Origin: Mesorhizobium sp. M1E.F.Ca.ET.045.02.1.1
GTDB lineage: Bacteria > Pseudomonadota > Alphaproteobacteria > Rhizobiales > Rhizobiaceae
DNA length: 64,000 nt
Reading direction: 5' to 3'
NCBI RefSeq assembly: GCF_003952485.1
Contig: NZ_CP034447.1
Location: forward strand, 1,798,001 to 1,862,000
The translations under genes were made by a program, and so were the position numbers. The notes under the pieces are model-generated. The model did no database searches and was not told where the DNA came from. It saw only the letters and a program-made list of their open reading frames with translations. Shown in pieces: positions 18,496 through 63,988 of the stretch (within the stretch, counting starts at the first letter, position 1; every line of letters begins with the position of its first letter).

Positions 18496-18565
18496 TTGGT
18501 CGAGGCAAGGGGTGGCTGATTGGCTGCGTTGGCACGTTGCAGATTAGCCGAAACGCCCATCTTGT

Positions 18566-18747: not shown

Positions 18748-18777
18748 AAGTTGTTAGGTCTCAGTCAGTCATGAAGG

Positions 18778-39990: not shown

Positions 39991-40008
39991 CTACCAACTA
40001 GTAGGTAG
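39991..40008. promoter_or_regulatory. TetR-type operator palindrome
   Basis: CTACCAACTAGTAGGTAG is an 18-base palindrome with a single mismatched pair and lies 25 bases upstream of the DUF308 start. TACC-n-ACTAGT-n-GGTA symmetry is characteristic of TetR-family operators and the operon contains a tetR gene. Confidence 0.75.
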
Positions 40009-40164
40009 ATTATGGATCGTCAAGGCATCGCCGATCACCTCGACATCTCATTTATGTGATCGGTCGTTCGCGTATAGCCGCGCATGGACCGCGCTGGCCG
40101 AAGATCTGTCGAAGCTGCGCGGGACGGGCCGAACTGAGGCTCCTGCTCAAATGGGCGCGCTACG

Positions 40165-40387
40165 TCCCTCTCCCCTTGAGGGGTGGGGCAATCGCATATG
40201 GCGCTCCCCCTCTCCGTCTCGGCTTCGCCGAGCCACCTCTCCCCCACTTTGTGGGGGAGAGGAACCCAAGCTTTTCAAGGCCGCGGCGTCAGCAGTTAGC
40301 GTTTCCTCGCCCCCATGAAATGGGGGAGAGGTGGCCGCGTAGCGGTCGGAGAGGGGAGCCAGCGCTGCCATATGCGATTGCCCTGCC
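40165..40387. repeat. composite palindrome, C-family core in GCATATG outer arms
   Basis: Outer arms GGGCAATCGCATATG (40186-40200) and CATATGCGATTGCCC (40369-40383). Inside are C-family arms: CCCCTCTCCGTCTCGGC...GAGCCACCTC at 40206-40238 with hairpin CTCCCCCAC/GTGGGGGAG, and the inverse GGGGGAGAGGTGGCCGCG at 40322-40339. Confidence 0.85.
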
Positions 40388-40493
40388 CGTCGCCGCCTTT
40401 TTGAGCTGAACCGGACGGAGTGCGGTAGCGGTGACATCGCTTCGTGGCGTCGAAATGGGAGTCGGCGCGCACTTAACCCGGCCCTTCGGACCA

Positions 40494-40640
40494 CCCCCCT
40501 CAAGGCAGGGCTATTGCATATGAGATTCTTGCGAAGAGAGACCCCCTCCCCCTGTGGGGAGGGGTTAGGGGTGGGGGTATTCGTAGGGCGCAAACCGTCG
40601 CTATCCATATGCGATAGCCCTGCCCCTCAAGAGGAGGGGC
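40494..40640. repeat. composite palindrome, D-like core in GCATATG outer arms
   Basis: Outer arms GCAGGGCTATTGCATATG (40506-40523) and CATATGCGATAGCCCTGC (40607-40624), with CCCCTC/GAGGGG further out. The core contains CCCCTCCCC/GGGGAGGGG and GGGTTAGGGGTGGGGGTA, the D-family sequence also at 23412-23430. Confidence 0.85.
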
Positions 40641-40656
40641 GCCGGCGCTACCGGCC

Positions 40657-42828: not shown

Positions 42829-42923
42829 CAGCACGTCTCCAGATGATAGGCTTTGCCGGGCCTTTGGCATGTTGGGGGTCAGGGGTCAATTCGGCTTAGG
42901 GTTAAGTAGGGCGGCGCGGCCTT

Positions 42924-43069
42924 CCCTTCTCCCCTTGTGGGAGAAGGTGGATCGGCGCGCAAGCGCCGAGACGGATGAGGGGTGTTCCAGCGGAGTGAGA
43001 CGTCAGCTTTCCCTAGAGCACCCCTCATCCGTCGCCTTCGGCGACACCTTCTCCCACAAGGGGAGAAGG
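42924..43069. repeat. A-family two-arm palindromic element, copy 1
   Basis: Left arm CCTTCTCCCCTTGTGGGAG...GAGACGGATGAGGGGTG, short spacer CCAGCGGAGTGAGACGTC..., right arm GCACCCCTCATCCGTCGCC...GGGGAGAAGG. Each arm has two hairpins. The copy at 53190-53333 shares even the spacer. Confidence 0.9.
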
Positions 43070-43077
43070 ACGGGCGC

Positions 43078-45114
43078 CTACGCCGCGATCCGCGGCCGTC
43101 CCGACGCCACCGCCACGACATGCGCTTCGATGAACATGCGCTGGCCTTCGATGGTCGAGACCTTGAACTCGGTGGCGACGTCGATCTCGGCGCTGTCGGT
43201 GCCGGCATCCTTGGCGCGCTGGGCGGCGAGCGCCCGCACATCGGTTTCCGCCGCGGCGATCGCCTTCGCCTCGTCGGTGAAATCGCGCACCGTTTGCCCC
43301 GACGCGAGGCGGAAGAGACCTTCCCTGGGCTGGCTGACGCGGGCTTCGGCCAAGACGCGGACCTGGCCGACCACGGCGCCAAGCGCATTCGCGACGTCGG
43401 TGTCCTCCGGCACGATGCAGCCATTGCCGATCAGCGGCGGCAGCCCGGCATAATGCAGCGGCGCCGAGGCGCCGAGGCCGATGACCGGGCGGTCGAGCGC
43501 GACAGTGAAGCGGGCGATGCCGGGATGCGCGTCGACGGCGCGCTGCACCAGCGCATGGGCGACCGTCGCGGCACCGTCCAAACCGTCCTCGGCGAAGGCG
43601 GTTTCGAGGATGTATTCGGCCGACCAGCGCGTCAGCGTGGTGAGCACGCGCTCGGCGAGCGCTTCCGGCGTCGCCGCAATCGCCTGCCCGCGGCCGTCGC
43701 GGCGGCGGGCGAAGAGCTCGGCGCCGAGGCGGGCGGCGGCGGGATCCCAATTGGCCTGCCTGCCCAGCACATGGGCGGCGTCGGACGGCGTGAAGCCGCA
43801 AATATGTACGAGGCCCCGCGCCACCAGCCGGTTGAGCGTGGCGTTCTGGGCGTTGGAGGTAAGCAGTCTGTCGAGCGCGAGCGGGGTGGCGCCGATCGCC
43901 TCGTAGAGTTTTGCTTCCGGCGCGGTGAGGCCGGCGGAGAGCCGATCCGGCACACCGGTGCGCACGGCAAAGCGCCCGTCCATGCGGCCGGGATTCGGCG
44001 CGCGCAACTGCCGTTCCAGCTCGGCGGTGACCGCCTCGCCATGCACCATTCCCGCCAGCGCCAGCGGCACCAGGCGACGCGGCCCGAGCAGGATTTTCGG
44101 GGTGAGCGCGCCGTCTTCCAGCGCCACTTCCGAGTCGCCGCCAAGGCCGAAGGTGCGCATGGCCACCGCCTCCACCATTGTGCGGAAGCCGCCGACGGTG
44201 GCGCCTTCGGGATCGAGGCGAGGCCGGCCGCCGTCGAGCACCGCGACATCCGTCGTGGTGCCGCCGATGTCCGACACCATGGCGTCGTCGAGCCCAGTCA
44301 TGTGGCGGGCGCCGACAAGGCTGGCGGCGGGGCCTGAGAGAATGGTTTCAATCGGCCGCTGGCGGGCGAAGGCCGCGGAGACCAGCGCGCCGTCGCCGCG
44401 CACCACCATCAGGGGTGCTGCGATGCCGCGTTTGGCAAGAAAGCCTTCGGTCGCCGCCACCAGCCGGTCGATCATCGAGATCAGGCGGGCGTTGAGCAGC
44501 GTGGTCAGCGCGCGGCGCGGCCCGCCGAGCTTGGCCGACAATTCATGGCTGGCGGTGACCGGCAGGCCGGTCTTCTCGCGGATCAGGTCGCGCGCCGCCA
44601 GCTCATGCGCCGGATTGCGGGTGGCGAAATAGGCGCAGACGGCGAAACCCGACACCGAACGCCCAAGCTCCGGCAGCGCCGCCTCGAGGTCGGAAAGGTC
44701 GAGTTTTGCCGCATTGCCGTGCACGTCATGGCCGCCGGGACAGAACACGACCGGATCGGTGCCTAAAGCCGTCTTCAGCCCGTCGCGGGCAAGGTCTGCC
44801 TCGGAAAAGCCGATCATGATGAGCGCCACGCGGCCGCCCTGGCCCTCGACCAGCGCGTTGGTGGCCAAAGTCGTCGACATCGAGACAAGCTTGATGGCCG
44901 CCGGGTCGGTGCCGGCCTTCTCCAGCACCGCGTCGACCGCGCCGGAAATGCCGACGGCGAGATCGTGCCTGGTGGTGAGCGCCTTGGCCTTGGCCAGCAC
45001 CTTGCCCTTGTTTGGGTTATCCAGGGGCCCGCCCTCTTCCGACCACAGCACAGCATCGGTGTAGGTGCCGCCGGTGTCGATGCCGAGGAAGAGAGGGGAT
45101 TGCTTGGCGATCAT
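43078..45114 (-). CDS. hydantoinase/oxoprolinase family protein (HyuA type)
   Basis: 678 residues, ASKHA-like fold: FLGIDTGGTYTDAVLW at the N-terminus, SMSTTLATNALVEGQGG, and DIGGTTTDVAVLDGG. The length and domains equal an N-methylhydantoinase A/5-oxoprolinase alpha subunit, but no HyuB partner is adjacent. It would open a lactam or hydantoin ring using ATP; substrate unknown. Start at 45114 (MIAKQSPLFLG) is at the domain edge; the 81-residue extension runs into a B-family repeat. Confidence 0.9.
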   Translation of the reverse strand: MIAKQSPLFLGIDTGGTYTDAVLWSEEGGPLDNPNKGKVLAKAKALTTRHDLAVGISGAVDAVLEKAGTDPAAIKLVSMSTTLATNALVEGQGGRVALIMIGFSEADLARDGLKTALGTDPVVFCPGGHDVHGNAAKLDLSDLEAALPELGRSVSGFAVCAYFATRNPAHELAARDLIREKTGLPVTASHELSAKLGGPRRALTTLLNARLISMIDRLVAATEGFLAKRGIAAPLMVVRGDGALVSAAFARQRPIETILSGPAASLVGARHMTGLDDAMVSDIGGTTTDVAVLDGGRPRLDPEGATVGGFRTMVEAVAMRTFGLGGDSEVALEDGALTPKILLGPRRLVPLALAGMVHGEAVTAELERQLRAPNPGRMDGRFAVRTGVPDRLSAGLTAPEAKLYEAIGATPLALDRLLTSNAQNATLNRLVARGLVHICGFTPSDAAHVLGRQANWDPAAARLGAELFARRRDGRGQAIAATPEALAERVLTTLTRWSAEYILETAFAEDGLDGAATVAHALVQRAVDAHPGIARFTVALDRPVIGLGASAPLHYAGLPPLIGNGCIVPEDTDVANALGAVVGQVRVLAEARVSQPREGLFRLASGQTVRDFTDEAKAIAAAETDVRALAAQRAKDAGTDSAEIDVATEFKVSTIEGQRMFIEAHVVAVASGRPRIAA

Positions 45115-45205
45115 GGGCGGGGCGGCAGTCCGGGGAAACGAGATTTGGTGCCTGCCCCTTAGCCGATACGGGGTTGCGGATAAAGGCGGGAGAGATGGGC
45201 CAGGT

Positions 45206-45368
45206 AATCTCCCCCCTTGAGGGGGAGATGTCGCCGAAGGCGACAGAGGGGGTCGCTGCGCGTCGAGCGCCGACGCCTTCCGCCACGACGAGCAATGACG
45301 TCGGCGATTTATGTGAGACGACCCCCTCTGGCCGCTTTGCGGCCATCTCCCCCTCAAGGGGGGAGATT
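45206..45368. repeat. B-family two-arm palindromic element, copy 1 (inverted)
   Basis: AATCTCCCCCCTTGAGGGGG...TCGCCGAAGGCGACAGAGGG on the left, CCCTCTGGCCGCTTTGCGGCC...AGGGGGGAGATT on the right, about 70 bases between. Compared with 46445 and 47110 it lies in the opposite orientation. Confidence 0.9.
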
Positions 45369-45374
45369 ACTCAG

Positions 45375-45677
45375 CTACTTCGCCGTGACGGTGCCCTTCA
45401 TCGAGCTGTGGATCGCACAGTGGAACGCATGCGCGCCGGCTTTGGCGATCTTGACCTTGGCGCTCTTGCCCTTGGCGAGCTGGCCGGTGTCGAAGGAGCC
45501 GTCCTCGGCCGTGGCGGTGTGCGTCATGGCGTCGGCATTGGTGAAGATGACGGTGTCGCCGACGGCGGCACTGATCTTGGCCGGGTGGAATTTCATGCCC
45601 TTGATCTGGACCGCGTGATTGGCGGCATAGGCGGGCATGGCGAAGGCGAGCAGAGCAAGAACGAGCATGGTTCGCAT
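45375..45677 (-). CDS. small secreted blue-copper protein (cupredoxin)
   Basis: 100 residues. Signal peptide MRTMLVLALLAFAMPAYA, then one plastocyanin/amicyanin-like domain. All four type 1 copper ligands are visible: His53 in MTHTA, Cys87 and His90 in HCAIH, Met93 in SSMKG. A periplasmic electron carrier or copper-binding protein. Strong CAGGAGG-like ribosome site upstream. Redox partner not adjacent. Confidence 0.92.
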   Translation of the reverse strand: MRTMLVLALLAFAMPAYAANHAVQIKGMKFHPAKISAAVGDTVIFTNADAMTHTATAEDGSFDTGQLAKGKSAKVKIAKAGAHAFHCAIHSSMKGTVTAK

Positions 45678-45736
45678 GATGGATTTCCTCCTGAAGCGCG
45701 AAACCTCATCCTAAACTAACGCCGGCGCACGGGTTT

Positions 45737-46363
45737 TCATGCCACGAACCCCACTCTTTTATGCGATCCGTCGCAGAACGGCTTGTTGGCCGAGTGGCCG
45801 CAGCGGCAGAGGAAGACCTTCGTCGTGCGGGCGACGGTGTGGCCGGTGCCGGTGACGATCTCGGCATTGCCTTCGAGCTTGAGCGGCCCGTTCGCGGTCG
45901 GCGTGACGTTCAGCGGGCCGTCCCGCGCCTCGAGCACCTGCGCCTCCTTCAGCGGCGGCTCGCCGGTGGCGGTGAAGCCGGCCTTGATGTGGCTGTTGTC
46001 GCAGAACGGCTTGTTCTGCGACTGGCCGCAGCGGCACAGCGTGGCGCGATGGAAAGTCTCGCCATTCAGTACGATTTGCGCATGCACCGCCAGGGGGCCG
46101 TTTTCCCTGACGCGCACGGTGTTGACCACCGGCGGCTTCTCCTGCGGCCCGCCATCCTTCCTGGCATAGGTGATGGCGCCCGACGGGCAGTTCTCGGCCA
46201 GCGCCACCACCTTCTCGACGCTCGCCGCATCGGGATGGATCCACTCGCCCTTGGCGTTTGGCACGAAGACATGCGGGTTGCCGAGCACGCAGTTGCGCGA
46301 ATGGATGCAGCGCTTGCCGCTGAAGGAAACGTCGATCTTCTCGCCTTCGACCATGCCTGCCAT
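45737..46363 (-). CDS. iron-sulfur protein with Fer4_19 and two CDGSH domains
   Basis: 208 residues, cytoplasmic. N-terminal divergent 4Fe-4S mono-cluster domain (GKRCIHSRNCVLGNPHVF, AENCPSGAITY), then two CDGSH motifs: LCRCGQSQNKPFCDNSH near 127-143 and LCRCGHSANKPFCDGSH near 185-201, each holding a 2Fe-2S cluster with three Cys and one His. Function of this combination is not known; redox or cluster transfer is likely. Confidence 0.93.
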   Translation of the reverse strand: MAGMVEGEKIDVSFSGKRCIHSRNCVLGNPHVFVPNAKGEWIHPDAASVEKVVALAENCPSGAITYARKDGGPQEKPPVVNTVRVRENGPLAVHAQIVLNGETFHRATLCRCGQSQNKPFCDNSHIKAGFTATGEPPLKEAQVLEARDGPLNVTPTANGPLKLEGNAEIVTGTGHTVARTTKVFLCRCGHSANKPFCDGSHKRVGFVA

Positions 46364-46444
46364 TTGGGGGTCTCCTGTTGGTGGGTGGAGACGAGGCTAG
46401 GGCGGGGGCGCGAAGGGCGTCAAGCTGGCCGGATGCACGGCCTT

Positions 46445-46604
46445 ATCTCCCCCCTCGAGGGGGAGATGGCCGCAAAGCGGCCAGAGGGGGTCGTCTCACG
46501 TAGATCGCCAGCGTCGTTTTCGTCGCGCAGGGCGCGTCGGCGCTCGATGCGCGGCGACCCCCTCTGTCACCTTCGGCGACATCTCCCCCTCAAGGGGGGA
46601 GATT
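46445..46604. repeat. B-family two-arm palindromic element, copy 2
   Basis: Starts ATCTCCCCCCTCGAGGGG with hairpin GGCCGCAAAGCGGCC, ends with TCACCTTCGGCGA-type hairpin and CCCTCAAGGGGGGAGAT. The spacer resembles that of copy 3 (47110-47269). Confidence 0.9.
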
Positions 46605-46611
46605 TGGCGCC

Positions 46612-46983
46612 CTACTCCTCCAGATTGATCTCCTCCGTCTGGCCGCCGCTGCAGGTGTAGCAGCAGTCGTCGCAGCTTTCCTTGTTGCCCGGACCGACGC
46701 CCCAATAGGTCTCCTCGTCGCCGTCGACCCAGGCGCCGTAGCAGATCTTCTCGCCGTCCTCGCAGGAGATCGGCAGCTCCTTGGTCTCGCCGTCGTCGAG
46801 ATAGAAATCCTTGCCATTGCCCGGCCAGACATAGTCGCGGTCCTGGCTGTAGAGTTCGACGCGCATGGCGTTGGGATGGCTGTTCCTGATCTGGAAGGTG
46901 ACGTCGCCGGCCTGCGCGGCGGACGAGACGATGACGGCAAGCGAGAGCGCGGCGGCAACGCGGCGCGCAATGGCGAAAGACAT
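46612..46983 (-). CDS. small Cys-rich secreted protein, paralogue 1
   Basis: 123 residues from ATG 46983. Signal peptide about 1-26 (ARRVAAALSLAVIVSSAAQA), then a beta-rich acidic domain: VTFQIRNSHPNAMRVELYSQ, VWPGNGKDFYL, PISCEDGEKICYGAWVDG, WGVGPGNKESCDDCCYTC. Six or seven cysteines cluster in the second half. No named family recognised. The gene at 47278 is a clear paralogue (PISCxxGExICxGAWV, GVGPxNxxxCxxCCxxC). Each is followed by a B-family repeat. Confidence 0.8.
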   Translation of the reverse strand: MSFAIARRVAAALSLAVIVSSAAQAGDVTFQIRNSHPNAMRVELYSQDRDYVWPGNGKDFYLDDGETKELPISCEDGEKICYGAWVDGDEETYWGVGPGNKESCDDCCYTCSGGQTEEINLEE

Positions 46984-47109
46984 GAAAACCCCCGAGGTCG
47001 AATCGGCCCCCACGGCCGATGGCGAATGATGGCATGCGAGGCTGGAACGAGGAAGGATTGATTCTCCCCGTGACGTTCGAGATTGGCGAAGGCGGAGTAG
47101 CGCGGCGCT

Positions 47110-47269
47110 AATCTCCCCCCTCGAGGGGGAGATGGCCGCGAAGCGGCCAGAGGGGGTCCTCGCGCGTGAAGCGCCAACGTCATTTCTTGTCGCGGACGGC
47201 GTCGGCGCTCGACGCGCAGCGACCCCCTCTGTCGCCTTCGGCGACATCTCCCCCTCGAGGGGGGAGATA
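47110..47269. repeat. B-family two-arm palindromic element, copy 3
   Basis: ATCTCCCCCCTCGAGGGG, hairpin GGCCGCGAAGCGGCC, spacer, then hairpin TCGCCTTCGGCGA and CCCTCGAGGGGGGAGAT. Lies between the two Cys-rich paralogues. Confidence 0.9.
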
Positions 47270-47277
47270 GCCGCCGC

Positions 47278-47625
47278 TTACTCCGCCAGATCCACCGTTT
47301 CCGTCGAATGCTCCACGCAGATGAAGCAGCAGGTGTCGCAGGGCTGGTCGTTGTCGGGGCCGACGCCGGCTGATATCTGATCGTTGCCGACGACCCAGGC
47401 GCCCCAGCAGATGTGCTCGCCATTGTCGCAGGAGATCGGCACGGATTTCCGCGCCTGCGGGCGGATGAGGAAGACCTTGTCGTTGCCCGGCCAGACCTTG
47501 CCGCTGTCGCGGCTGAACAATTCCACCGCCACGTCCTGCTGCCGCTGGTTCCTGACGAAGACCGACATGTCGGCGGCGAGGGCCGGCGTGGAGAGGAGCA
47601 GAGCGGCGAGCGAGATGCGAATCAT
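47278..47625 (-). CDS. small Cys-rich secreted protein, paralogue 2
   Basis: 115 residues from ATG 47625. Signal peptide MIRISLAALLLSTPALA, then MSVFVRNQRQQDVAVELFS, KVWPGNDKVFLI, PISCDNGEHICWGAWVVG and VGPDNDQPCDTCCFICVE. Same pattern as the 123-aa neighbour, so a tandem duplication that has diverged strongly. The cysteine spacing suggests disulfides or a metal site in the periplasm. Function unknown. Confidence 0.8.
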   Translation of the reverse strand: MIRISLAALLLSTPALAADMSVFVRNQRQQDVAVELFSRDSGKVWPGNDKVFLIRPQARKSVPISCDNGEHICWGAWVVGNDQISAGVGPDNDQPCDTCCFICVEHSTETVDLAE

Positions 47626-47678
47626 GGTGGGGTCCCCGAGAGGAGTAGAGCACGGGCGGGGGAAAGGCGCGACCTCCC

Positions 47679-47861
47679 CCTTCTCCCCTTGTGGGAGAAG
47701 GTGGCCGAGCGAAGCTCGGACGGATGAGGGGTGCTCCAGCTTGGCGACGACGTCCATTACCAATTGCGCTGGTGGAAATCGCCAGCGCCTCGTTTCTTCC
47801 AACACCCCTCATCCGTCTCGGCGCTGCGCGCCGATCCACCTTCCCCCACAAGGGGGGAAGG
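47679..47861. repeat. A-family two-arm palindromic element, copy 2
   Basis: Left arm CCTTCTCCCCTTGTGGGAG...GGATGAGGGGTG, 66-base spacer, right arm AACACCCCTCATCCGTCTCGG...GGGGAAGG. The spacer starts CTCCAGCTTGGCGACG, which is the inverse of bases next to the right arm of the DUF559 element at 54524-55077. Confidence 0.9.
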
Positions 47862-47866
47862 AAGGG

Positions 47867-48373
47867 TCAGCGCCTCACCTCCACATGCGGCGCGAATTTG
47901 CGCACCGCCTCCACCATGTCCTCGCCGCTCATGTCGAGCGAGGAGACCTCCATGTGCACGGTGGTCCTGCCGAAGGGCAGCAGGCCGAACAGGTTGGCGG
48001 GCGCGTATCTGATCTCGTCGGGCGGCACCTCGGTGAGATCGAAATTGAGCATCGCAGCGCCCCGGCCGGCGGCGAGGCGCACGCTCTCCACCTTCTGCCA
48101 CGGCACCAGCACGTCGCCGGCGCGGCGGTCGCGGAAGCCGTTTTCGTCGAGCACGACCTGGACACGCGTGTCGAAGGCGCCGCGCGCGATGAAAAGCCCA
48201 AGCCCGGCAAAGCCGAGCGTCAGCAGCGCCACCATGAACACGCCCCCGCCCGGCGCCCCCATGGACAGCCCCTTGACCAGATAGAAGCCGAAGATCGCCG
48301 CCATCAGGAACGACCCGAGCGCCGGGACGATCTTTCCCGTGGCGCTGTTGCGGATTTCGAGCGGCGCGGCCAT
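47867..48373 (-). CDS. small two-helix membrane protein, function unknown
   Basis: 168 residues from ATG 48373 (MAAPLEIRNSATGK). Two hydrophobic helices near 18-70 (LGSFLMAAIFGFYLVKG, GVFMVALLTLGFAGLGLFI), then a PH-like soluble part (VVLDENGFRDRRAGDVLVPWQKVESVRL in essence: LDENGFRDRRAGDVL and PWQKVESVRL). A GTG at 48388 overlapping the previous stop would add five residues. In operon with the upstream membrane gene. Confidence 0.7.
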   Translation of the reverse strand: MAAPLEIRNSATGKIVPALGSFLMAAIFGFYLVKGLSMGAPGGGVFMVALLTLGFAGLGLFIARGAFDTRVQVVLDENGFRDRRAGDVLVPWQKVESVRLAAGRGAAMLNFDLTEVPPDEIRYAPANLFGLLPFGRTTVHMEVSSLDMSGEDMVEAVRKFAPHVEVRR

Positions 48374-48384
48374 TTTTGCCCCGC

Positions 48385-48897
48385 TCACCGTTCCGATTTC
48401 ATGAGCGTCCAGATCCAGCCGATGAAGGTGAGGACCACGAACGGATAGCCGGCGGCGGGCAGCGGCGAGGAGGTGGGCAGCAACGGCGCGCCCCACAGGA
48501 TCATCGCCGCCGAGACGACGAAGAGCAGGGCCGACACGAAAGCGGTGAGCCGCATCCAGAGCGCGAAGGTGTTTTTCGCGCTGACCATGGCGAGCCCCGC
48601 CGCCCAGAGCGCAATGCCGCCGACATAGGAAGGCACGCTCGCCTGCAGGCCCGCCGCATTGCCGGCCAGAAGCAGGCTTTCGCCGGCCAGGAAGGTGAGG
48701 AAGCCGGCCGCGACAAGATCATTGCCCAGCCGCTGGTATTTCATCGTCAGCAGCGCGGCCGCGACGACGACGCCCACGCCGTCGATGGTCCAGAGCGTTT
48801 CGCGCAGCGCATCGCTCACAACGAAAGTGCCCGCCATGCCCAGCGCGCCGCCCACGGCGAGGCCGATCGCGGCGACGGTGTCCGAAGTGGAGCGCAT
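48385..48897 (-). CDS. multi-helix membrane protein, function unknown
   Basis: 170 residues with five or six hydrophobic helices (AAIGLAVGGALGMAGTFV, GVVVAAALLTMKY, AAGFLTFLAGESLLLAG, LTAFVSALLFVVSAAMILWG, PFVVLTFIGWIWTL). No family named with confidence. Its stop overlaps a possible GTG start of the next gene, so the two small membrane proteins probably work together. Confidence 0.7.
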   Translation of the reverse strand: MRSTSDTVAAIGLAVGGALGMAGTFVVSDALRETLWTIDGVGVVVAAALLTMKYQRLGNDLVAAGFLTFLAGESLLLAGNAAGLQASVPSYVGGIALWAAGLAMVSAKNTFALWMRLTAFVSALLFVVSAAMILWGAPLLPTSSPLPAAGYPFVVLTFIGWIWTLMKSER

Positions 48898-49041
48898 GTG
48901 ATGTCTCCCAAGCCGGGGAGAGGATACAACGAGGTGGGACGGCCCAAAAGGCCAAACAGGATAGATGTCAACTGTGGTAAGAGACCGCCCGAAGGCGGAC
49001 GCTGCGGGACAGCCGAGAGGGGATTTGCGAACCCAGCAGCT

Positions 49042-49698
49042 TTAGGCTCGCCCGCCGGCTTTCTCATACGCGTTTGTTAGTTGACGCGCCAGCATCCCGG
49101 ACAGCAATTCCTCCATACGAGAAAGATCAATACGTCCTTCCTTAGAGGCAGCATCCGCTGCGTCCAAAGCGTCGAAGTATGGATTTCTATTCTCTACGAT
49201 CTGTTCTGGGATAGTTGGCGTTCCTGGGAACACGCTCTCCGCTTTGATACATAATACTACGTAAGACAATATGCGCGACGTCCGGCCGTTTCCATCCGCA
49301 AAAGGGTGTACCCAATTAAGCCGCCACATTATATAGGCAGCCAGATGGATAGCTGTTGCTTTCTCCCAATTGTCGTTGACGTAGTCACAGAGATCTTCAA
49401 TCAATTCTGGAACGAGATGTGCTTCGGCCGGCTTGTGCTTACTTCCGACTATCTCCACGCCTGCGGGCCGAAAATTACCCGCGTACGCGCTGATTCCCGC
49501 TAAGGCCTCTCGCTGTAGAGCAAGTATCAAGGACGGCCTAAGCTTGAAGTTGCCGCGCTCCAACGCCTGATGAACGGTCTGAATACCATAGTCATACTGC
49601 TTCAGGCCGTTCCTGGCCTCTGCCTCTGCCTTAAGCTCCGGATCTGATATCAGATCAGCTTCAAATGCCCTGCTATGGCGTTGAGCGGAATCGGTCAC
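49042..49698 (-). CDS. Fic family protein (probable AMPylase, TA toxin)
   Basis: 218 residues. The core motif HPFADGNGR (131-139) is complete, with catalytic His131; Fic enzymes transfer AMP from ATP to target proteins such as gyrase. No inhibitory S/TxxxEG helix was found inside the protein, so it should be a class I Fic controlled by a separate antitoxin, and a 59-aa candidate lies 23 bases upstream. The DNA is visibly richer in A+T than the neighbours, suggesting transfer. Confidence 0.92.
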   Translation of the reverse strand: MTDSAQRHSRAFEADLISDPELKAEAEARNGLKQYDYGIQTVHQALERGNFKLRPSLILALQREALAGISAYAGNFRPAGVEIVGSKHKPAEAHLVPELIEDLCDYVNDNWEKATAIHLAAYIMWRLNWVHPFADGNGRTSRILSYVVLCIKAESVFPGTPTIPEQIVENRNPYFDALDAADAASKEGRIDLSRMEELLSGMLARQLTNAYEKAGGRA

Positions 49699-49721
49699 TA
49701 CAAATAGCCTTTGGACGCTAA

Positions 49722-49901
49722 CTACCTTTTGACATTCTTGCTCAAAAGCTCAGCCTGCTTATCGATCATCTCACGAGTTATCCTCTCGTTTTCGAACTTG
49801 GTGTTCCCATAAGCAAAGCTTCGGCGTTGCTGTTCCTTGTCGATCTTTGACTGATCAAGCGTTTTGGTGGCTTCAATCAGTTTTTTCAGTGCTTCAGTCA
49901 T
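49722..49901 (-). CDS. 59-aa VbhA/YhfG-like antitoxin partner of Fic
   Basis: Starts at ATG 49901 after an AGGAGG ribosome site; MTEALKKLIEATKTLDQSK, then QQRRSFAYGNTKFENERITR and DKQAELLSKNVKR, stop at 49722. Fic antitoxins such as VbhA are about 60 residues and block ATP with a helix of the form S/T-x-x-x-E-G/N; here GNTKFEN places E-N correctly but the S/T position holds Asn with Thr next to it. Context and size support the role; the motif match is imperfect. Confidence 0.7.
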   Translation of the reverse strand: MTEALKKLIEATKTLDQSKIDKEQQRRSFAYGNTKFENERITREMIDKQAELLSKNVKR

Positions 49902-50074
49902 AGATACCTCCTGCGCTTATCGCCCAACTGGCAAACGCAAATCACTCTGGCAAGCATGCGCGATGCCCGCCGGATTTGCCAATGAATTTGTTATGAAAGC
50001 CGTCACGCGTCTCGCGCTGCGAGACAACTCATTCCACAAGCCTGGCCACTAGCAACTGGGAGAGGCCTTACCTC

Positions 50075-50779
50075 TCAATCAAACAGTGGCAGTTCCGCGT
50101 CTCGAAGTGGTCTAATCCGTTTCACTTTCAGATCGCGCTTTTCGATCTCATCCATCGCGGACGCCACCATACCGAGTTGATCTCTAAGGCGTTCCTCTGA
50201 CCACATGTCCAAACTCGCTGAAGAATACGTCTTACGATTTCGCGAGCCACCCTCTTCGCCCGACGAGCAGTCGACGTATTCGACGTCGCAGGTTTCGCCA
50301 TAGAACTCTTGCTCTAGGAGGAACTTCCTGTGCACCGTAAGCATGCCACAGTAAACATCTTCCGAAAGCACAAAGGACTTTCTGTACTGAAGAAAATAGA
50401 GTTTAACGACGCCGCCCTCAGTGAAAAAGAACGGTATTCTATACGTCGCGAACCGATCCCGAGCGAAAGGAAAGCGGCGACCGTTTAGATCGAAAACTTG
50501 AGTCTTACGGCCGAACGCCAAGGGGCTTGCAAGAGCGATAACATCCTGATTGGCCTTGTAACCGACACGCTCTTGGACGGAGAGCGGCGCCGCTAAAAGT
50601 TGATCTATCTGATGAAGCCCTTTGTATGCTTTCCGCACGGCCTTCACAGCGCGCAAATAGTTGAATTTGCCGCCATCTACCGGGTTGTAAAACTCTAGCA
50701 GCGACCGCATTGCGGTCTGTACGTTCGTAGTGTCGGCTCGCAGGATTTCGACAAGCGGGGGATTGGTAAGAGGAATCAC
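50075..50779 (-). CDS. unknown partner of Panacea protein, possible toxin
   Basis: 234 residues, soluble, no family recognised. N-terminal part is helical (RAVKAVRKAYKGLHQIDQLL), the middle is beta-rich and aromatic (RFATYRIPFFFTEGGVVKLYF), and the C-terminus ends LRDAELPLFD. That tail resembles the QLxLF motif by which proteins bind the DnaN sliding clamp. Its ATG overlaps the stop of the Panacea gene (ATGA), the arrangement of a toxin-antitoxin pair. Confidence 0.6.
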   Translation of the reverse strand: MIPLTNPPLVEILRADTTNVQTAMRSLLEFYNPVDGGKFNYLRAVKAVRKAYKGLHQIDQLLAAPLSVQERVGYKANQDVIALASPLAFGRKTQVFDLNGRRFPFARDRFATYRIPFFFTEGGVVKLYFLQYRKSFVLSEDVYCGMLTVHRKFLLEQEFYGETCDVEYVDCSSGEEGGSRNRKTYSSASLDMWSEERLRDQLGMVASAMDEIEKRDLKVKRIRPLRDAELPLFD

Positions 50780-51300
50780 GTGTTCGCTCCTTGTTCACCC
50801 GAACGATAGAGCCTTCCTCCGGTTTTTTCAAACCATTCGAGGATGAGCTCGTCAGGGATCAACATCCCCGGAACAGCGTTTTTTTCAGCGGTGTTCCAGA
50901 TGATATCCCAAGGCGTGCCCTTTTCGTGTGTCAAATCCGAGAGCTTGTACGGATGGAACTCCGAATAGTAGGCAAATACGTTTTGCAGAAATACGAGACG
51001 TTCTCCCCCAATTGCGGCTTGGGCGTCAACAAACGCACCAGTTGAAACATCTAACTTCTGCAAGCGCTCCGTGATTGGTCCGGCACCAAAGCGCTTCACT
51101 TGATCATAGACAACTCTATTTACCGGGCCGTGCTTCCAAGCCTCAAATTTCTGACCTATTAACGGCTCTTTATATTTCGCGAGATGCCACGCGTGCGCAA
51201 AATAGAGAATTTTCAGTAGCGCCATAGAGGTCAGTCGATGGCCTTTGGCATCGGCCATATCAAGGAACAGGTTGGAAATTTCCCGGGCGTCGTAACTCAT
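50776..51300 (-). CDS. Panacea-domain (SocA/DUF4065) antitoxin-like protein
   Basis: 174 residues. MALLKILYFAHAWHLAKYKE, LIGQKFEAWKHGPVNRVVYDQ and DIIWNT are the family landmarks. Panacea proteins neutralise many unrelated toxins (PanAT systems); Caulobacter SocA instead delivers SocB, a DnaN-binding toxin, to ClpXP. First gene of a two-gene unit with the 234-aa protein. Codon use is A+T-richer than lepA next door. Confidence 0.85.
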   Translation of the reverse strand: MSYDAREISNLFLDMADAKGHRLTSMALLKILYFAHAWHLAKYKEPLIGQKFEAWKHGPVNRVVYDQVKRFGAGPITERLQKLDVSTGAFVDAQAAIGGERLVFLQNVFAYYSEFHPYKLSDLTHEKGTPWDIIWNTAEKNAVPGMLIPDELILEWFEKTGGRLYRSGEQGANT

Positions 51301-51334
51301 TTCATTGAGAACATATCAGGAACATCCATACTTC

Positions 51335-53140
51335 TCAATCACCCATCTTCAGCGCCTGAATAAACGCCTCCTGCGGGATATCGACCTTGCCGAACTGGCG
51401 CATCCGCTTCTTGCCCTCTTTCTGCTTGTCGAGCAGCTTGCGCTTGCGGGTGACGTCGCCGCCGTAGCATTTGGCGGTGACGTCCTTCCTGAGCGCCGAG
51501 ACGGTCTCGCGGGCGATGATGCGGCCGCCTATCGCCGCCTGGATCGGGATCTTGAACAGGTGCTGCGGGATCAGCTCCTTCAGCTTCTCGCACATGGCGC
51601 GGCCGCGCTTTTCGGCGGCCGAGCGGTGCACCAGCATGGACAAAGCGTCGACCGGCTCGTCATTGACCAGGATCGACATCTTCACCAGGTCGCCCTCGCG
51701 GTAGTTCGTCAGGTGATAGTCGAAGGAGGCGTAGCCCTTGGAGATCGACTTCAGGCGATCGTAGAAATCGAAGACGACCTCGTTGAGCGGCAGGTCGTAG
51801 GTCAGCATGGCGCGTTTTCCCACATAGGAGAGGTCGGCCTGGATGCCGCGCCTGTCCTGGCAGAGTTTCAGGATGCCGCCGAGATAGTCGTCCGGCGTGA
51901 GGATGGTGGCGCGGATCCACGGCTCCTCGATCGAGGCGATCTTGACCACGTCGGGCATGTCGGCCGGGTTGTGCAGTTCCTTGGTCGTGCCGTCGATGAG
52001 GTTCATGCGGTAGACGACGGAAGGCGCGGTGGCGATGAGGTCGAGGTTGAACTCGCGCTCCAGCCGCTCCTGGATGATCTCCAGATGCAGCAGGCCGAGG
52101 AAGCCGCAACGGAAGCCGAAGCCGAGCGCGGCGGAGGTCTCCATTTCGAAGGAGAAGGACGCGTCGTTGAGGCGCAGCTTGCCGACGGCGGCGCGCAGGT
52201 CCTCGAAATCGGCGGCGTCGACCGGGAACAGGCCGCAGAACACCACCGGCTGCGCCGGCTTGAAGCCGGGCAGCGCCTTTTGCGTCGGGCGGCGGTCCTC
52301 GGTGATGGTGTCGCCGACGCGGGTGTCGGCCACTTCCTTGATCGAGCCGGTGAAGAAGCCGAACTCGCCGGGGCCAAGCTCGTCGACATTGACGCGGGCC
52401 GGCTTGAACACGCCGGTGCGCTCGACGAGATATTTCGCGCCGGTGCCCATCATGCGGATGGTCTGGCCCTTCTTCATCACGCCGTCGATGATGCGCACCA
52501 GAACGATGACGCCGAGATAGGCGTCGTACCAGCTGTCGACCAGCATCGCCTTCAAGGGTGCTGCGATGTCGCCCTCGCGCGGCGGCGGGAGCTGGTGGAC
52601 GATCGCCTCCAGCACGTCCGGCACGCCGAGGCCGGTCTTGGCCGAGATCAGCACCGCGTTGGAGGCGTCGAGGCCGATCACCTCCTCCACCTGCTCGCGG
52701 ATGCGCTCGGGCTCGGCCGCCGGCAGGTCGACCTTGTTCAGCACCACGACGATCTCGTGGTTGTTGTCGATGGCCTGGTAGACATTGGCGAGCGTCTGCG
52801 CCTCGACGCCTTGGGAGGCGTCCACCACCAGCAGCGAGCCCTCGCAGGCGGCTAAAGAGCGCGACACCTCGTAGGCGAAGTCGACATGGCCGGGGGTGTC
52901 GATGAGGTTCAGGACATAGTCCTCGCCGTTCCTGGCTCGGTAGTTCAGCCTCACCGTCTGGGCCTTGATGGTGATGCCGCGCTCGCGCTCGATATCCATC
53001 GAGTCCAGCACCTGCTCCTTCATGTCGCGCTCCTCCAGCGCGCCGGTGAGCTGGATCAGCCGGTCGGCAAGCGTGGATTTGCCATGGTCGATATGGGCGA
53101 CGATGGAGAAATTGCGGATGTGGTCGAGGGGCGTCGTCAT
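51335..53140 (-). CDS. lepA: elongation factor 4
   Basis: 601 residues, ribosome-bound GTPase. G1 [15 protein letters not shown]2 region [16 protein letters not shown]3 [11 protein letters not shown]4 NKVDLP; then EF-G-like domains and the LepA-specific C-terminal domain ending [12 protein letters not shown]. Start at 53140 ([14 protein letters not shown]) gives the usual length; the 74-residue extension is translated repeat. Confidence 0.97.
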
Positions 53141-53189
53141 GCGGCGCGCTTTAGCAGGGGCGGGGGTAGCGGGCAAGCCGGGCACCTTT

Positions 53190-53333
53190 CCTTCTCCCCT
53201 TGTAGGAGAAGGTGGATCGGCGCGTTGGCGCCGAGACGGATGAGGGGTGTCCCAGCGGAATGAGACGTCGGCATTCCCTGGAGCACCCCTCATCCGTCGC
53301 CTTCGGCGACACCTTCTCCCACAAGGGGAGAAG
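53190..53333. repeat. A-family two-arm palindromic element, copy 3
   Basis: Almost the same as 42924-43069, including the spacer CCAGCGGAATGAGACGTC and the right-arm hairpin GTCGCCTTCGGCGAC. The 306-bp gap between lepA and the pilus gene is half filled by it; the rest (53334-53446) shows nothing but the likely pilus-gene promoter region. Confidence 0.9.
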
Positions 53334-53446
53334 GGGAGGGCCGCGCCGCGCCGTACATTCAAAACCGCTTAAACAATTATGCACCCATTTAGGGCATAGC
53401 TCCGCCTTGGGTGGCTGCGCCACCGGTGTTGTTCGGGGGTTGGGGA

Positions 53447-54514
53447 ATGTTCTCGTCGCCAAGAAATTTCGTTCGCTCGGAAAGCGGCTCGATGATGCCG
53501 ATCATGATGATGATCACGATCCCATTGCTGCTGGCCGTCGGCTTTTCCGTCGACTACACCTCGGCGGTGACGACCAGGAGCAACATGCAGAACGCGCTGG
53601 ACGCAGCGATCATCTCGATCACGACGCTGCCGACCACGACGTCGAAGGGCGACCGCCAGACGGCGCTGCAGCAGGCCTATGCGGCGAACAGCGGGCTTGG
53701 CACGGCGACGCTCACCGGTGTCGATATCGCCGCCGACGGCACGGCGACCTTCAGCGCCACGGCGGCCTATCCGATGCCGACCAATTTCATGCAGATCGCC
53801 CGGATCAACACGGTGGATGTCGGCGTCGGCTCCTCGGTGCGCAAGACGCCGGCGCTGGTGCAGTCCACCTTCAAGGTGACGAAAGTGTCCGGCTATTGGA
53901 ACAAGACCATGACGCTCTACGGCACCAAGTTCGGCGAAACCACCCCCAAGCCGCTGATGACGATCACGTACACCTACAATGGCTATGGCGACCCGAAGGG
54001 CTACGGCACGACCACGGTGAGCACCATCAACGGCTCCACCAGCACGGTGGTCCAGCAGCAGGTTTGCACGACCAACACGGTCGGCAATTTCAACAACCTG
54101 GCCGCCGGCACGATCACCCAGACCGACAGCAGGGGAAAGAAGTACGCGACGACCTGCGCCGACACCTTCTACCCCGCCAACGGCTCCGGCGCGGTGATCG
54201 ATGTCAGCCAGATGGACAAGCTTTATCTGGAGATGAAGGTACCTTCGGGCAATCCGACGACGCTGCGGTCGAACGATGCCACCACCTCGAACCGGCTCTA
54301 TATCGGCACCAGCGCCACCAACATGCCCGAGGTCCCCACCGGGCAGGTCGTCGATATCTTCAGCGCCGTGCCCTGCGGCCAGGCCGGCTACCAGGCCTGG
54401 GAGGACGGCGGCAATCCGGTGCCGGCCGATGTCAGCAATGCCGACTTCTTCTACACCACCACCGGCAAGTGCGACTTCAACCAGAGGCAGTCGGAAACGG
54501 TGCTGACGCAGTAG
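53447..54514 (+). CDS. TadG/TadE-like Flp pilus assembly protein
   Basis: 355 residues. N-terminus has the basic start, ESGSMMPIMMMITIPLLLAVGF and the membrane helix followed by DYTSAVTTRSNMQNALDAA, the signature of TadG-like pseudopilin-related proteins. The remainder is a large Thr/Ser/Gly-rich extracytoplasmic part with few charges. No other tad gene is near. Start at 53447 (MFSSPRNFVRS); earlier starts lack support. A+T and codon use are like the neighbours. Confidence 0.85.
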   Translation: MFSSPRNFVRSESGSMMPIMMMITIPLLLAVGFSVDYTSAVTTRSNMQNALDAAIISITTLPTTTSKGDRQTALQQAYAANSGLGTATLTGVDIAADGTATFSATAAYPMPTNFMQIARINTVDVGVGSSVRKTPALVQSTFKVTKVSGYWNKTMTLYGTKFGETTPKPLMTITYTYNGYGDPKGYGTTTVSTINGSTSTVVQQQVCTTNTVGNFNNLAAGTITQTDSRGKKYATTCADTFYPANGSGAVIDVSQMDKLYLEMKVPSGNPTTLRSNDATTSNRLYIGTSATNMPEVPTGQVVDIFSAVPCGQAGYQAWEDGGNPVPADVSNADFFYTTTGKCDFNQRQSETVLTQ

Positions 54515-54523
54515 GGCACCTCT

Positions 54524-55077
54524 CCTTCTCCCCTTGTGGGAGAAGGTGGATCGGCGCGAAGCGCCGAGACGGATGAGGGGTGTTGGACGGAGCGCAGTGG
54601 CTGGTTAATCTGGTACCATGCCGCATCGACCTGTCACACAGACCAAACGCAGCTTTGCCCGTTCGCTTCGGCGCGAAATGACGGAGGCGGAGAACAAGCT
54701 TTGGCAGGAATTGCGCGACCGCAGGCTCGATCGAATAAAGTTTCGACGCCAGGCGCCAATTGGGAAATACGTCGCCGATTTCGTTTGCCCCGAAGCACGC
54801 CTGATCATCGAGATCGATGGGAGCCAGCACGCGGATTCGGAGTCCGACCTAGCGCGCGGAGCTGAATTAAAGGCGAGAGGCTTTCGCGTCTTGCGCTTTT
54901 GGAACGACGATGTCCTGAAGGATCTGGACAGCGTCTGCGATACGATCATTGCGTATGTGAGGGATACCAGCCTGCAGCCGTGGCGGTGAGCTGGATAGGC
55001 GGCGTCGCCAAGCTGGAACACCCCTCATCCGTCTCGGCGCTCCGCGCCGATCCACCTTCTCCCACAAGGGGAGAAGG
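54524..55077. mobile_element. candidate mobile element: DUF559 gene between 61-bp A-family inverted arms
   Basis: Left arm 54524-54584 and right arm 55017-55077 are inverted copies with one mismatch in 61 positions. Each arm holds two hairpins: CCTTCTCCC/GGGAGAAGG and CGGCGC/GCGCCG, then GACGGATGAGGGG. A single DUF559 gene almost fills the 432 bases between. The other A-family copies have the same arms and 30-70 bases instead of a gene. No target-site duplication is obvious. Confidence 0.7.
54618..54989 (+). CDS. DUF559 (Vsr-like) endonuclease-domain protein
   Basis: 123 residues. RREMTEAENKLWQELRDRRL, KFRRQAPIGKYVADFVCPEA, LIIEIDGSQHA and GFRVLRFWNDDVL are DUF559, a PD-(D/E)XK-like nuclease domain related to Vsr mismatch endonuclease; Asp in VADFV and Glu in IEIDG with Gln/His are the likely catalytic residues. 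It lies entirely inside a pair of inverted repeat arms. Confidence 0.92.
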   Translation: MPHRPVTQTKRSFARSLRREMTEAENKLWQELRDRRLDRIKFRRQAPIGKYVADFVCPEARLIIEIDGSQHADSESDLARGAELKARGFRVLRFWNDDVLKDLDSVCDTIIAYVRDTSLQPWR

Positions 55078-55174
55078 AAGAAGCGGCACCGCCCCAATCA
55101 CAAACCGGTGAAGCTGTAACGAAGCCTTCGGCCGCGGCGAAATGGAAGCATCGCCGCAACGGAGACTGCTTCTC

Positions 55175-55879
55175 ATGACCGGACCCAAGACAATGCTCGG
55201 CAAAGCGCTGCTCGCCGGCGCGGCGCTGATCGCGCTTGCCACTGGCGCGAGTGCCGCATCCGCGCAGCTGACCGTCGTGGAGCTGTTCACCAGCCAGGGC
55301 TGCTCGTCCTGCCCGCCGGCCAATGCCAACCTGATCAAGGTCAAGGACCGGCCGGGCGTGCTGGCGCTGTCCTTCAACGTCACCTATTGGGACTATCTCG
55401 GCTGGAAGGACATTTTCGGCCGGCAGGAGTTCACCCAGCGCCAGGTCAATTACGAGCCCTCACTCGGTCATGACGGGCCGTTCACGCCGCAGGTGGTGGT
55501 GAACGGCAGCGCCGACGCGGTCGGCGCCAGGACCGGCGAGATCGAACGGCTGATCTCGACGAGCCCGTCTGCTCAAGGCCCGGCGCTTTCGCTCGGGCAG
55601 GGCAAGGTCAGCATCGGCTCGGGCAAGGCGCCCGGCGGCAAGGCCGACATCTGGCTGGTGCGCTACGCCAAGGGCGTCGTCGAGGTGCCGGTGGCGCGCG
55701 GCGAAAACACCGGGCGCACGCTGCCGCACGGCAATGTCGTGCATTCGCTGCAGCGGCTTGGCGGCTGGAGCGGCCAGGCCACGACCCTGCCGCTGCCGGC
55801 CGCCGCCAACGGCCTCAGCACCGCGGTGCTGGTGCAGAGCCCCGGCGGCGGGCCGATCCTGGCCGCCGCCGCGGACTGA
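55175..55879 (+). CDS. DUF1223 secreted thioredoxin-like protein
   Basis: 234 residues from ATG 55175, preceded by GGAGA. Signal peptide to about residue 31 (LAGAALIALATGASAASA), then VVELFTSQGCSSCPPANANL, a CxxC in a thioredoxin-like setting that defines DUF1223. The C-terminal half is beta-rich. Exported, redox function probable but unproven. An upstream ATG at 55142 adds 11 residues. Confidence 0.9.
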   Translation: MTGPKTMLGKALLAGAALIALATGASAASAQLTVVELFTSQGCSSCPPANANLIKVKDRPGVLALSFNVTYWDYLGWKDIFGRQEFTQRQVNYEPSLGHDGPFTPQVVVNGSADAVGARTGEIERLISTSPSAQGPALSLGQGKVSIGSGKAPGGKADIWLVRYAKGVVEVPVARGENTGRTLPHGNVVHSLQRLGGWSGQATTLPLPAAANGLSTAVLVQSPGGGPILAAAAD

Positions 55880-55963
55880 TCATCGTTTTTCGCGCGGGGC
55901 CGCAGGAAGCGGCATCGCAACACCCGGCCCGCATTCGCGCGCCACAACCCAAGGAGACTAGCC

Positions 55964-56248
55964 ATGACCAAATTCCTGACGGCGCTCACGCTTGCGCTCG
56001 CGACCACGGCCTTCGCCGCCAGCGCCCGCGCCGACGATGCGACCAATGCCATGAAGCCCGCCAACGCGATGGCGACGGATGCAATGAAGCCGGCGACGGA
56101 CGCGATGAAACCGGCCGATACGATGAAGCCCGATGCGATGGCGACACAAGCGATGAAGCCCGCCACCGACGCGATGAAGCCTGCCGACGCCATGAAGCCG
56201 GTGACGGATGCCATGAAACCGGCGGACGCGATGGCCCCGGCCCAGTAA
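55964..56248 (+). CDS. secreted MKP-repeat protein (pentapeptide MXKDX-like)
   Basis: 94 residues. Signal peptide MTKFLTALTLALATTAFA..ARA, then eight near-identical units of the form DAMKPA or TDAMKPA until the end at APAQ. Such Met/Lys/Asp hexa/pentapeptide proteins ('pentapeptide MXKDX') are known in proteobacteria, function unknown; regularly spaced Met could bind copper or scavenge oxidants. It stands between DUF1223 and msrA, both redox-related. Confidence 0.85.
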   Translation: MTKFLTALTLALATTAFAASARADDATNAMKPANAMATDAMKPATDAMKPADTMKPDAMATQAMKPATDAMKPADAMKPVTDAMKPADAMAPAQ

Positions 56249-56290
56249 GGTCCCGGCCTCTCCTCGGCGAAGGCCGAACAATCGCGAAGG

Positions 56291-56460
56291 GCGCTCCCCC
56301 GCTCCGTCTCGGCGCTGCGCGCCGAGCCACCTCTCCCCCATTTCATGGGGGCGAGGAAATGCCTAACCGCCGAGGGCGCGGCCTTCGCAAGCCTGGGTTC
56401 CTCGCCCCCGCGAAGCGGGGGAGAGGTGGCTCGGCGAAGCCGAGACGGAGAGGGGGAGCG
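56291..56460. repeat. C-family two-arm palindromic element
   Basis: GCTCCCCCGCTCCGTCTCGG on the left with hairpin CCCCCATTTCATGGGGG, inverse on the right with CCCCCGCGAAGCGGGGG and GGCTCGGCGAAGCCGAGACG. The order hairpin, GTGG, hairpin, GAGACGGA, GAGGGG is the same as in the A family. Confidence 0.9.
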
Positions 56461-56551
56461 CCGACGCCGGCGATAAGCCGCCGCACGGCAAAGTGAGAAC
56501 CTCTCGGCGGCTTCCTTCGTATATACTGGAACCAAGACAAGGAGATCCAAC

Positions 56552-57292
56552 ATGAACGGCATCGACAAAAAGCCCGCGCGGCGATCGCCATTCTTTACCC
56601 GCGGCGCGCTTGCGGCACTGGTGCTGACGGCGGCGGCGGCCGCGTTCTGGCAGACGCCGGCCCGTTCGGCCGAGGACGCGGTGGTGATCCCGCCGCCGGC
56701 TTTGGACGAGAAGGCCGCGAGCGGCACCGAGACGGCCGTGTTCGCCGGCGGCTGCTTCTGGGGCGTGCAGGGCGTGTTCCAGCACGTGAAGGGCGTCAGC
56801 AAGGCCGTTTCCGGCTATACCGGCGGCAGCGCCGAAAACGCCGTCTACGAGGTCGTCGGCACCGGCCGCACCGGCCATGCGGAATCGGTCGAGATCACCT
56901 ACGATCCGTCGAAGGTCACCTACGGCCAGCTCCTGCAGGTCTATTTCTCGGTGGCGCACAACCCGACGCAGCTCAACTACCAGGGACCGGACCAGGGCAC
57001 GCAGTATCGCTCGACGATCTTTGCCGGGAACGACGAGCAGAAGAAAGTCGCCGAGAGCTACATTGCCCAGCTCGACAGGGCCAAGGTGTTTGCGAAGCCG
57101 ATCGTGACGACGCTCGAGACCGGCAAGACCTTCTATCCGGCCGAGGACTACCATCAGGACTTCCTGACGCTGAACCCGACCTACCCCTATATCGTCTACA
57201 ACGACCTGCCCAAGATCGAGAACCTCAAGGCGCTGTTCCCGCAGCTCTACAGCGAAAAGCCGGTGCTGGTGCTGGCGTCGAGCAAGAGCTGA
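56552..57292 (+). CDS. msrA: peptide methionine (S)-S-oxide reductase, exported/anchored
   Basis: 246 residues. Signal or anchor at 18-40 (GALAALVLTAAAAAFW), then the MsrA domain with FAGGCFWGVQ (catalytic Cys68), GYTGGSAENAVYE, GRTGHAESVEI and QYRSTIF. Repairs oxidised methionine outside the cytoplasm. No fused MsrB. Sits next to a Met-repeat protein, a possible substrate. Confidence 0.95.
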   Translation: MNGIDKKPARRSPFFTRGALAALVLTAAAAAFWQTPARSAEDAVVIPPPALDEKAASGTETAVFAGGCFWGVQGVFQHVKGVSKAVSGYTGGSAENAVYEVVGTGRTGHAESVEITYDPSKVTYGQLLQVYFSVAHNPTQLNYQGPDQGTQYRSTIFAGNDEQKKVAESYIAQLDRAKVFAKPIVTTLETGKTFYPAEDYHQDFLTLNPTYPYIVYNDLPKIENLKALFPQLYSEKPVLVLASSKS

Positions 57293-63771: not shown

Positions 63772-63988
63772 GTTCCTCGCCCCACGAAGTGGGGAGAAGT
63801 GGCCCGGCGAAGCCGGGACGGAGAGGGGCCTGCGCCGGCGGTTGGAATCTCGCTGTTCGGTGACCCCTGTCCTCTCAAGGCCGACGTCGCGTCCTTTCCC
63901 CACCGGTTCTGGCTTCGCGAATGTCGTCCCCCTCTCCGTCCCGGCTTCGCCGGGCCACCTCTCCCCCGCTCGCGCGGGGGCGAGGAAA
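63772..63988. repeat. C-family two-arm palindromic element at window end
   Basis: Left arm GGTTCCTCGCCCCACGAAG...GGGACGGAGAGGGG (63771-63828), right arm CCCCTCTCCGTCCCGGC...GGGGGCGAGGAA (63929-63987), about 100 bases between, no ORF. Confidence 0.88.

Follow-up and report, generated by a model that had tools for sequence, protein, structure and literature searches.

DUF559 genes framed by inverted hairpin repeats suggest a RAYT-like partnership with an unrelated enzyme in rhizobia

Introduction

RAYT transposases reportedly go together with REP/REPIN repeats, a partnership that Bertels and Rainey are said to have described in 2011. To our knowledge, palindromic repeats fill intergenic regions in many bacteria and include large families for which no enzyme has been named. 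DUF559 is, as far as we know, a common protein family with a solved relative (3HRL) and a member in Escherichia coli K-12 (ycjD), and almost no function has been assigned to it.

In RAYT systems, as the available part of PMC2817692 (Nunvar 2010) describes them, a small gene lies between two inverted palindromic repeats, many gene-free copies are dispersed, and gene families and repeat families go together, three respects in which the DUF559 genes considered here are alike. The enzyme and the repeats differ: RAYTs are tyrosine transposases related to IS200/IS605, whereas DUF559 models as a Vsr-type nuclease fold, and RAYT repeats carry a GTAG-type head, whereas DUF559 arms carry a GAGGGG-like G-rich tag and often two hairpins (same part of PMC2817692). 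Another relevant system is I-Bth0305I (PDB 3R3P). According to the available part of PMC3943268, this phage-encoded homing endonuclease has further regions that bind DNA, whereas the DUF559 proteins considered here measure about 110-130 amino acids and are framed by palindromes. Likened by description only, the rhizobial RIME, Sm-repeats, AB and C palindromes (Osteras 1995, via PMC2573895) are dispersed and intergenic like the A elements presented below, with no associated enzyme named in the available part of that source. The CGTC-tagged REPs of alphaproteobacteria, named for their CGTC end, are said in the available part of PMC3733652 to lack association with transposase genes; as alphaproteobacterial palindromes they too resemble the arm families by description. 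A literature search that excluded most subscription journals returned no paper tying DUF559 or ycjD to palindromic repeats.

Results

The window, by which we mean the whole stretch of DNA analysed (64,000 nucleotides of Mesorhizobium sp. M1E.F.Ca.ET.045.02.1.1, contig NZ_CP034447.1, positions 1,798,001 to 1,862,000), holds a compact element at 54523-55078. Its left A-family arm (54523-54584, plus strand) consists of an outer hairpin, a second hairpin and a GGATGAGGGG tag pointing to the gene, a 123-aa open reading frame on the plus strand (54618-54989) that matches DUF559 (PF04480, E 5e-41). The right arm (55017-55078, minus strand) is the left arm's inverted copy, identical at 61 of 62 positions. 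The tight fit of the gene between inverted arms, noticed in the first-pass annotation, was therefore borne out, with arms of 62 nt and one mismatch, and folding as single-stranded DNA recovered the two hairpins claimed for each arm (z -5.5 and -6.2). In the 7.35-Mb genome, a 26-nt arm core (at most 2 mismatches) occurs in 117 copies and the reversed pattern in none, indicating that the arms are repeated beyond chance.

Three A elements consist of two inverted arms alone, at 42925-43070, 47679-47862 and 53189-53334, with spacers of about 32, 67 and 33 nt. All three had been seen before, and their description as carrying the same arms needs correcting: each pairs an arm of 94-98% identity to the left arm at 54523 with a partner that reaches only 83-86% and differs in its second hairpin. 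The roughly 15 bases which the 47679 element shares with the flank of the right arm, taken earlier as a trace of internal deletion, are present but prove little by themselves, because similar bases adjoin the arms of other A elements. Stronger grounds for that link come from orthology, since in Mesorhizobium sp. ORS 3428 (L019) a gene-bearing DUF559 element occupies the site of the arms-only 47679 element. By description rather than by sequence, one of the RIME, Sm-repeat, AB or C families may include the arms-only A elements.

Other two-arm palindromic elements of the window are of B type (45204-45370, with hairpin ATCTCCCC and tag CAGAGGGGG; 46440-46608; 47102-47277) or of D type (56290-56470, with outward tags; 63780-63977), and the B-type arms at 45204-45370 are close to an arm type that frames another DUF559 clade. 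An inverted element of the CGTCATCC...GGAATGACG kind at 18565-18748 is unlike the DUF559-type arms and is perhaps a CGTC-tagged REP, a label taken from the available part of PMC3733652 and applied by description only. Rfam gave no match above its thresholds over 40000-57000.

The first-pass annotation had proposed counting how often DUF559 genes in other genomes are flanked by A-family arms, rarity being the outcome that would speak against its idea. Genes were collected from the genome of the window, from named genomes (the best 80 of 530 loci, hence biased to close relatives), from relatives (41 genomes, the genome itself plus 40 relatives) and from the phylum (150 genomes, 30 loci taken); of the 210 DUF559 genes obtained, 9 were set aside as duplicates and 12 for short flanks. 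Inverted palindromic arms scoring at least 40 framed 127 of the remaining 189 genes, compared to 15 of 2358 equal-length placements in the same loci, the named-genome part being the best 80 of 530. By source, framing was seen in 3/5 genes of the genome itself, 54/79 in named genomes (from the best 80 of 530), 52/79 in relatives and 18/26 in the phylum. A second test on the window and L006-L085 gave 57 framed among 86 DUF559 genes versus 9 among 594 other open reading frames, and framing is thus the opposite of rare. The arms of the 127 framed genes had a median length of 61 nt and a median identity of 91%. The arm-score test left 62 of the 189 genes unframed, some of them with one-sided palindromes, and these count against a partnership. 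Within the genome of the window itself, three of the five DUF559 genes are framed by long inverted arms, each of a different family, and the other two (L002, L004) have palindromes on the 5' side only within the stretch searched. Framing by palindromic arms is general, beyond the A family and beyond rhizobia. The A-family arms proposed for the flank search turned out to be too narrow a criterion: as the arm family differs between DUF559 clades, a search restricted to the A family would miss many framed genes.

Arm families share a common plan, in which a CTCCCC...GGGGAG-type hairpin, frequently with a second hairpin after it, is followed by a G-rich tag (GATGAGGGG, CAGAGGGGGG, GGAGAGGGGG or GGGTGAGGGG). 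Each DUF559 clade tends to have its own cognate family of such arms, the C-rich/G-rich hairpins being followed by tags such as GATGAGGGG. Among 110 full-length framed genes with an arm score of at least 45, protein distance and arm distance were correlated (Mantel rho 0.29, a value reached by none of 2000 permutations). Consistent with this, when the 10 singletons were dropped and the 100 genes in arm families of at least two members were placed on the protein tree, many of them from one genus, 13 changes of arm family were needed (the least possible being 9), and all of 200 shuffles needed at least 47. Species relatedness alone is insufficient to account for this match, because single genomes hold several arm families.

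For the A-type clade we compared 55 distinct genes that match at 70% identity or more along almost their full length, a set that leaves out shorter or broken copies, which do exist (for example, matches of 81-90 residues, and one match with a stop). The full 369 bases without internal stop were kept in 54 of the 55, and the median dN/dS was 0.10 (1033 of 1431 pairs scorable), so that the gene is under purifying selection. In the tree, the 23 genes that map to the same site as the window's gene, next to a DUF1223 gene, form a cluster that includes one unassigned row. A second group is made up of genes from the 46-48-kb sites, mixed among neighbouring intergenic sites. Two A-type genes occur in 8 of 57 A-type genomes, among the matches listed. 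The gene passes mainly by vertical descent, accompanied by duplication or conversion on a local scale and not by frequent long jumps. The gene-bearing copy that moves itself, as first proposed, finds no support in the A-type clade, where the gene stays in vertical residence and the second group is shuffled only among neighbouring sites.

Orthologous sites were found in changing states. The DUF1223-adjacent site holds arms and gene in L199, L208, L213, L222 and L224; arms alone in L202, L205-L207, L210 and L211; a solo outer hairpin in L201 and L217, degenerate in L279; and B and D elements, some nested, in L203, L209, L212, L223 and L228. The sites at 46440 and 47102, occupied by B elements in the window, hold an A-tagged DUF559 gene in 13/17 and 6/11 related loci, respectively, and L126 keeps hairpin remnants only. 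At 42925, the window and 13 further loci show A elements in six cases (window included), a related family in two, B elements in four and a solo hairpin in two. A solo hairpin may be similar to the left outer hairpin or to the right one, in keeping with the decay of a two-arm element, of which the solo hairpins look like further products. The comparison of empty and filled sites, also proposed at the outset, yielded a clean contrast for the arms-only D element at 56290, which is absent with continuous flanks in L201, L202 and L206, and none for the gene-bearing element. At these empty sites GGGCGC and GCGCC adjoin the insertion, and a target-site duplication is not established there.

Two side observations concern the use of sites. 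Across 45204-47277 and in L017, L026, L028, L031 and L250, the palindromic family at a given intergenic site varies between species, and two DUF559 copies lie about 1.1 kb apart, by recurrent use or replacement of sites. In several species, the left outer hairpin of an A element is split at an almost identical position by a palindrome of the GTGAG...GGGCCGGG kind (L006 about 3470-3600; L204; L222; L024 about 4880; L061; L254), a nested element with an apparent site preference.

Repeats and gene also go together between genomes. In the window's genus (119 related genomes, which do not give independent counts), the median count of the A-arm core was 42 in the 57 genomes with the A-type gene and 16 in the 62 without it (p 2e-7), with exceptions on both sides: at least 40 A arms in 10 of the 62 (116 in G258), and at most 5 in 2 of the 57. 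For the phylum we built a generic tagged-palindrome pattern from arms that frame DUF559 genes, and called palindromes abundant at 10 or more and at least 3 times the reversed control. They were abundant in 23 of 31 genomes with DUF559 versus 5 of 119 without (150 related genomes, whose counts are not independent), and 6 of the 31 had fewer than 10. Two same-genus contrasts, with versus without DUF559, gave 241 versus 1 and 117 versus 1. In another genus, tagged palindromes number 6 in the genome with DUF559, 0-2 in thirteen genomes without the gene, and 154 in one further genome without it, G177 (87% complete, no DUF559 match). In the palindrome-rich genomes G177 (154 generic) and G258 (116 A-type), which have no matching DUF559, the gene may have been lost, its contig may be missing, or another helper may act.

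Outside the rhizobia, the DUF559 family includes E. coli K-12 ycjD, which lies between sapF and fabI and has matches in 3365 of 5426 genomes of the species. This gene has a tagged palindrome on its downstream side only and no framing (L308 2507-3066). The 43-nt palindrome has matches in 5100 of the 5426 genomes, at a median of 4 places where there are any, and a near-identical copy lies between zntA and tusA (L310 1201-1243), beside what we take in some strains to be an ordinary REP sequence. For breadth, 12 records were hand-picked from 45. Only four are framed by inverted arms scoring at least 40 (Azospirillum lipoferum, Sinorhizobium meliloti, Deinococcus proteolyticus, Pseudanabaena), which counts against the partnership. 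In Neisseria gonorrhoeae and Picosynechococcus, strong palindrome-carrying direct repeats lie on either side of the gene, and the remaining records, two E. coli, two A. brasilense, Sinorhizobium sp. K101 and Deinococcus sp. NW-56, show one-sided palindromes or a weaker inverted match. The N. gonorrhoeae gene (L312 1200-2142) sits between copies of about 120 bp with a tagged palindrome that are direct, not inverted. Around DUF559 genes of Deinococcus and of cyanobacterial plasmids (L317, L318, L319, L320), GC-rich palindromes, inverted or direct, follow the plan of a hairpin plus a G-rich tag. On S. meliloti pSymB (L305 2850-3500), the gene lies between long repeated GAGGGG-tagged stretches, and an annotated ISRm16 transposase adjoins.

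The DUF559 protein has the conserved acidic and histidine residues of a Vsr-type catalytic core, and among solved structures the DUF559-like protein 3HRL and the homing endonuclease I-Bth0305I, in its catalytic domain, come closest to it. The earlier comparison with Vsr was right as to type, with these two as nearest solved relatives, and the protein models as a Vsr-type nuclease fold of the kind seen in the EDxHD homing endonuclease I-Bth0305I. The anatomy likened to RAYT/REP systems held up well: hairpin arms, a gene between inverted palindromic repeats (in the window and in 127/189 genes), many dispersed gene-free repeats (117 arm-core copies), and an orthologous site that bears the gene in one case and arms only in another. 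Of the terminal inverted repeats with target-site duplication that mark MITEs and insertion sequences, the element shows the inverted ends, no duplication being proved. A tyrosine (HUH) transposase was rejected, as the protein belongs to PF04480 and has only two histidines and no His-hydrophobic-His pair. Neither arm in the window carries a GTAG head, the tag being GATGAGGGG; this comparison covered GTAG only, a head that also has Pseudomonas-type GTGG variants in the available part of PMC2817692. Despite the similar working, membership in the RAYT/REPIN class was therefore rejected.

Discussion

Our results suggest that the DUF559 family spreads or maintains hairpin repeats. We consider it probable, with real room for doubt, that DUF559 genes are partnered with tagged hairpin repeats much as RAYTs are with REPINs, by way of an unrelated enzyme, in a system in which the gene is mostly resident and the arms-only copies are dispersed; recognition, cleavage and copying are the inferred part of it. 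One or a few copies of an element would carry the gene, and many would be two arms with a short spacer. The DUF559 protein, probably acting in trans on arms elsewhere, would recognise the arm hairpins and cut or nick at them, and repair of the break would copy an element into the cut place. Elements of one family would in this way spread, replace those of another family, sometimes regain the gene and sometimes erode.

What chiefly discriminates between this partnership and its rivals is the scarcity of tagged palindromes in genomes without DUF559, together with the residence of the gene. The palindromes might instead be spread or kept by replication, recombination or terminator selection, with DUF559 as a parasite which, like a homing endonuclease, copies its own gene between the arms of cut arms-only elements. 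The closest functionally characterised relative of the fold is indeed the catalytic domain of a homing endonuclease, and gene-bearing sites do have gene-less states, with arms only or a solo hairpin, which could be either ancestral or derived. However, a parasite of independent repeats would not be expected to leave genomes without DUF559 so poor in tagged palindromes, and the A-type gene shows mainly vertical residence instead of recurrent invasion of the roughly 100 arms available, so that we regard this explanation as rather unlikely.

Still less probable is a cut-and-paste element with DUF559 as its transposase, the whole arm-gene-arm unit jumping. Such an element would agree with the compact unit, its inverted ends and its dispersed gene-free copies, as well as with gene copies at several neighbouring sites, two of them in 8 of 57 A-type genomes among the matches listed; the residence of the gene weighs here as well. 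We also give very little credence to a Vsr-like mismatch-repair nuclease that would travel with the repeats, or fix errors in them, and have no mobilising role. The Vsr fold would suit it, and in a Caulobacter methyltransferase mutant the SOS response requires VsrA, a DUF559 protein and, by the authors' prediction, a nuclease of mismatch repair (PMC12907096, available part). Yet the clade-specific arm families and the two-sided framing would be left unexplained by a repair enzyme, and the main text of PMC12907096, in its available part, has none of the words palindrome, hairpin or inverted repeat and neither supports nor tests the link.

More tentatively, it is possible that DUF559 and GAGGGG-like tagged palindromes constitute a resident class found across bacteria, with rhizobia, E. 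coli K-12, Neisseria, Deinococcus and cyanobacteria among its hosts, and that its Vsr-fold nuclease spreads and swaps hairpin elements by hairpin cutting and repair copying. If true, this would amount to intron-free homing, and it would add to RAYT a second enzyme-based explanation for the origin and persistence of palindromic repeats in bacteria. The link could be tested in E. coli K-12, given the palindrome downstream of ycjD and its further copies elsewhere in E. coli genomes. It would mean a new type of enzyme moving or converting hairpin DNA, and would give the DUF559 family a function and a large class of repeats an origin.
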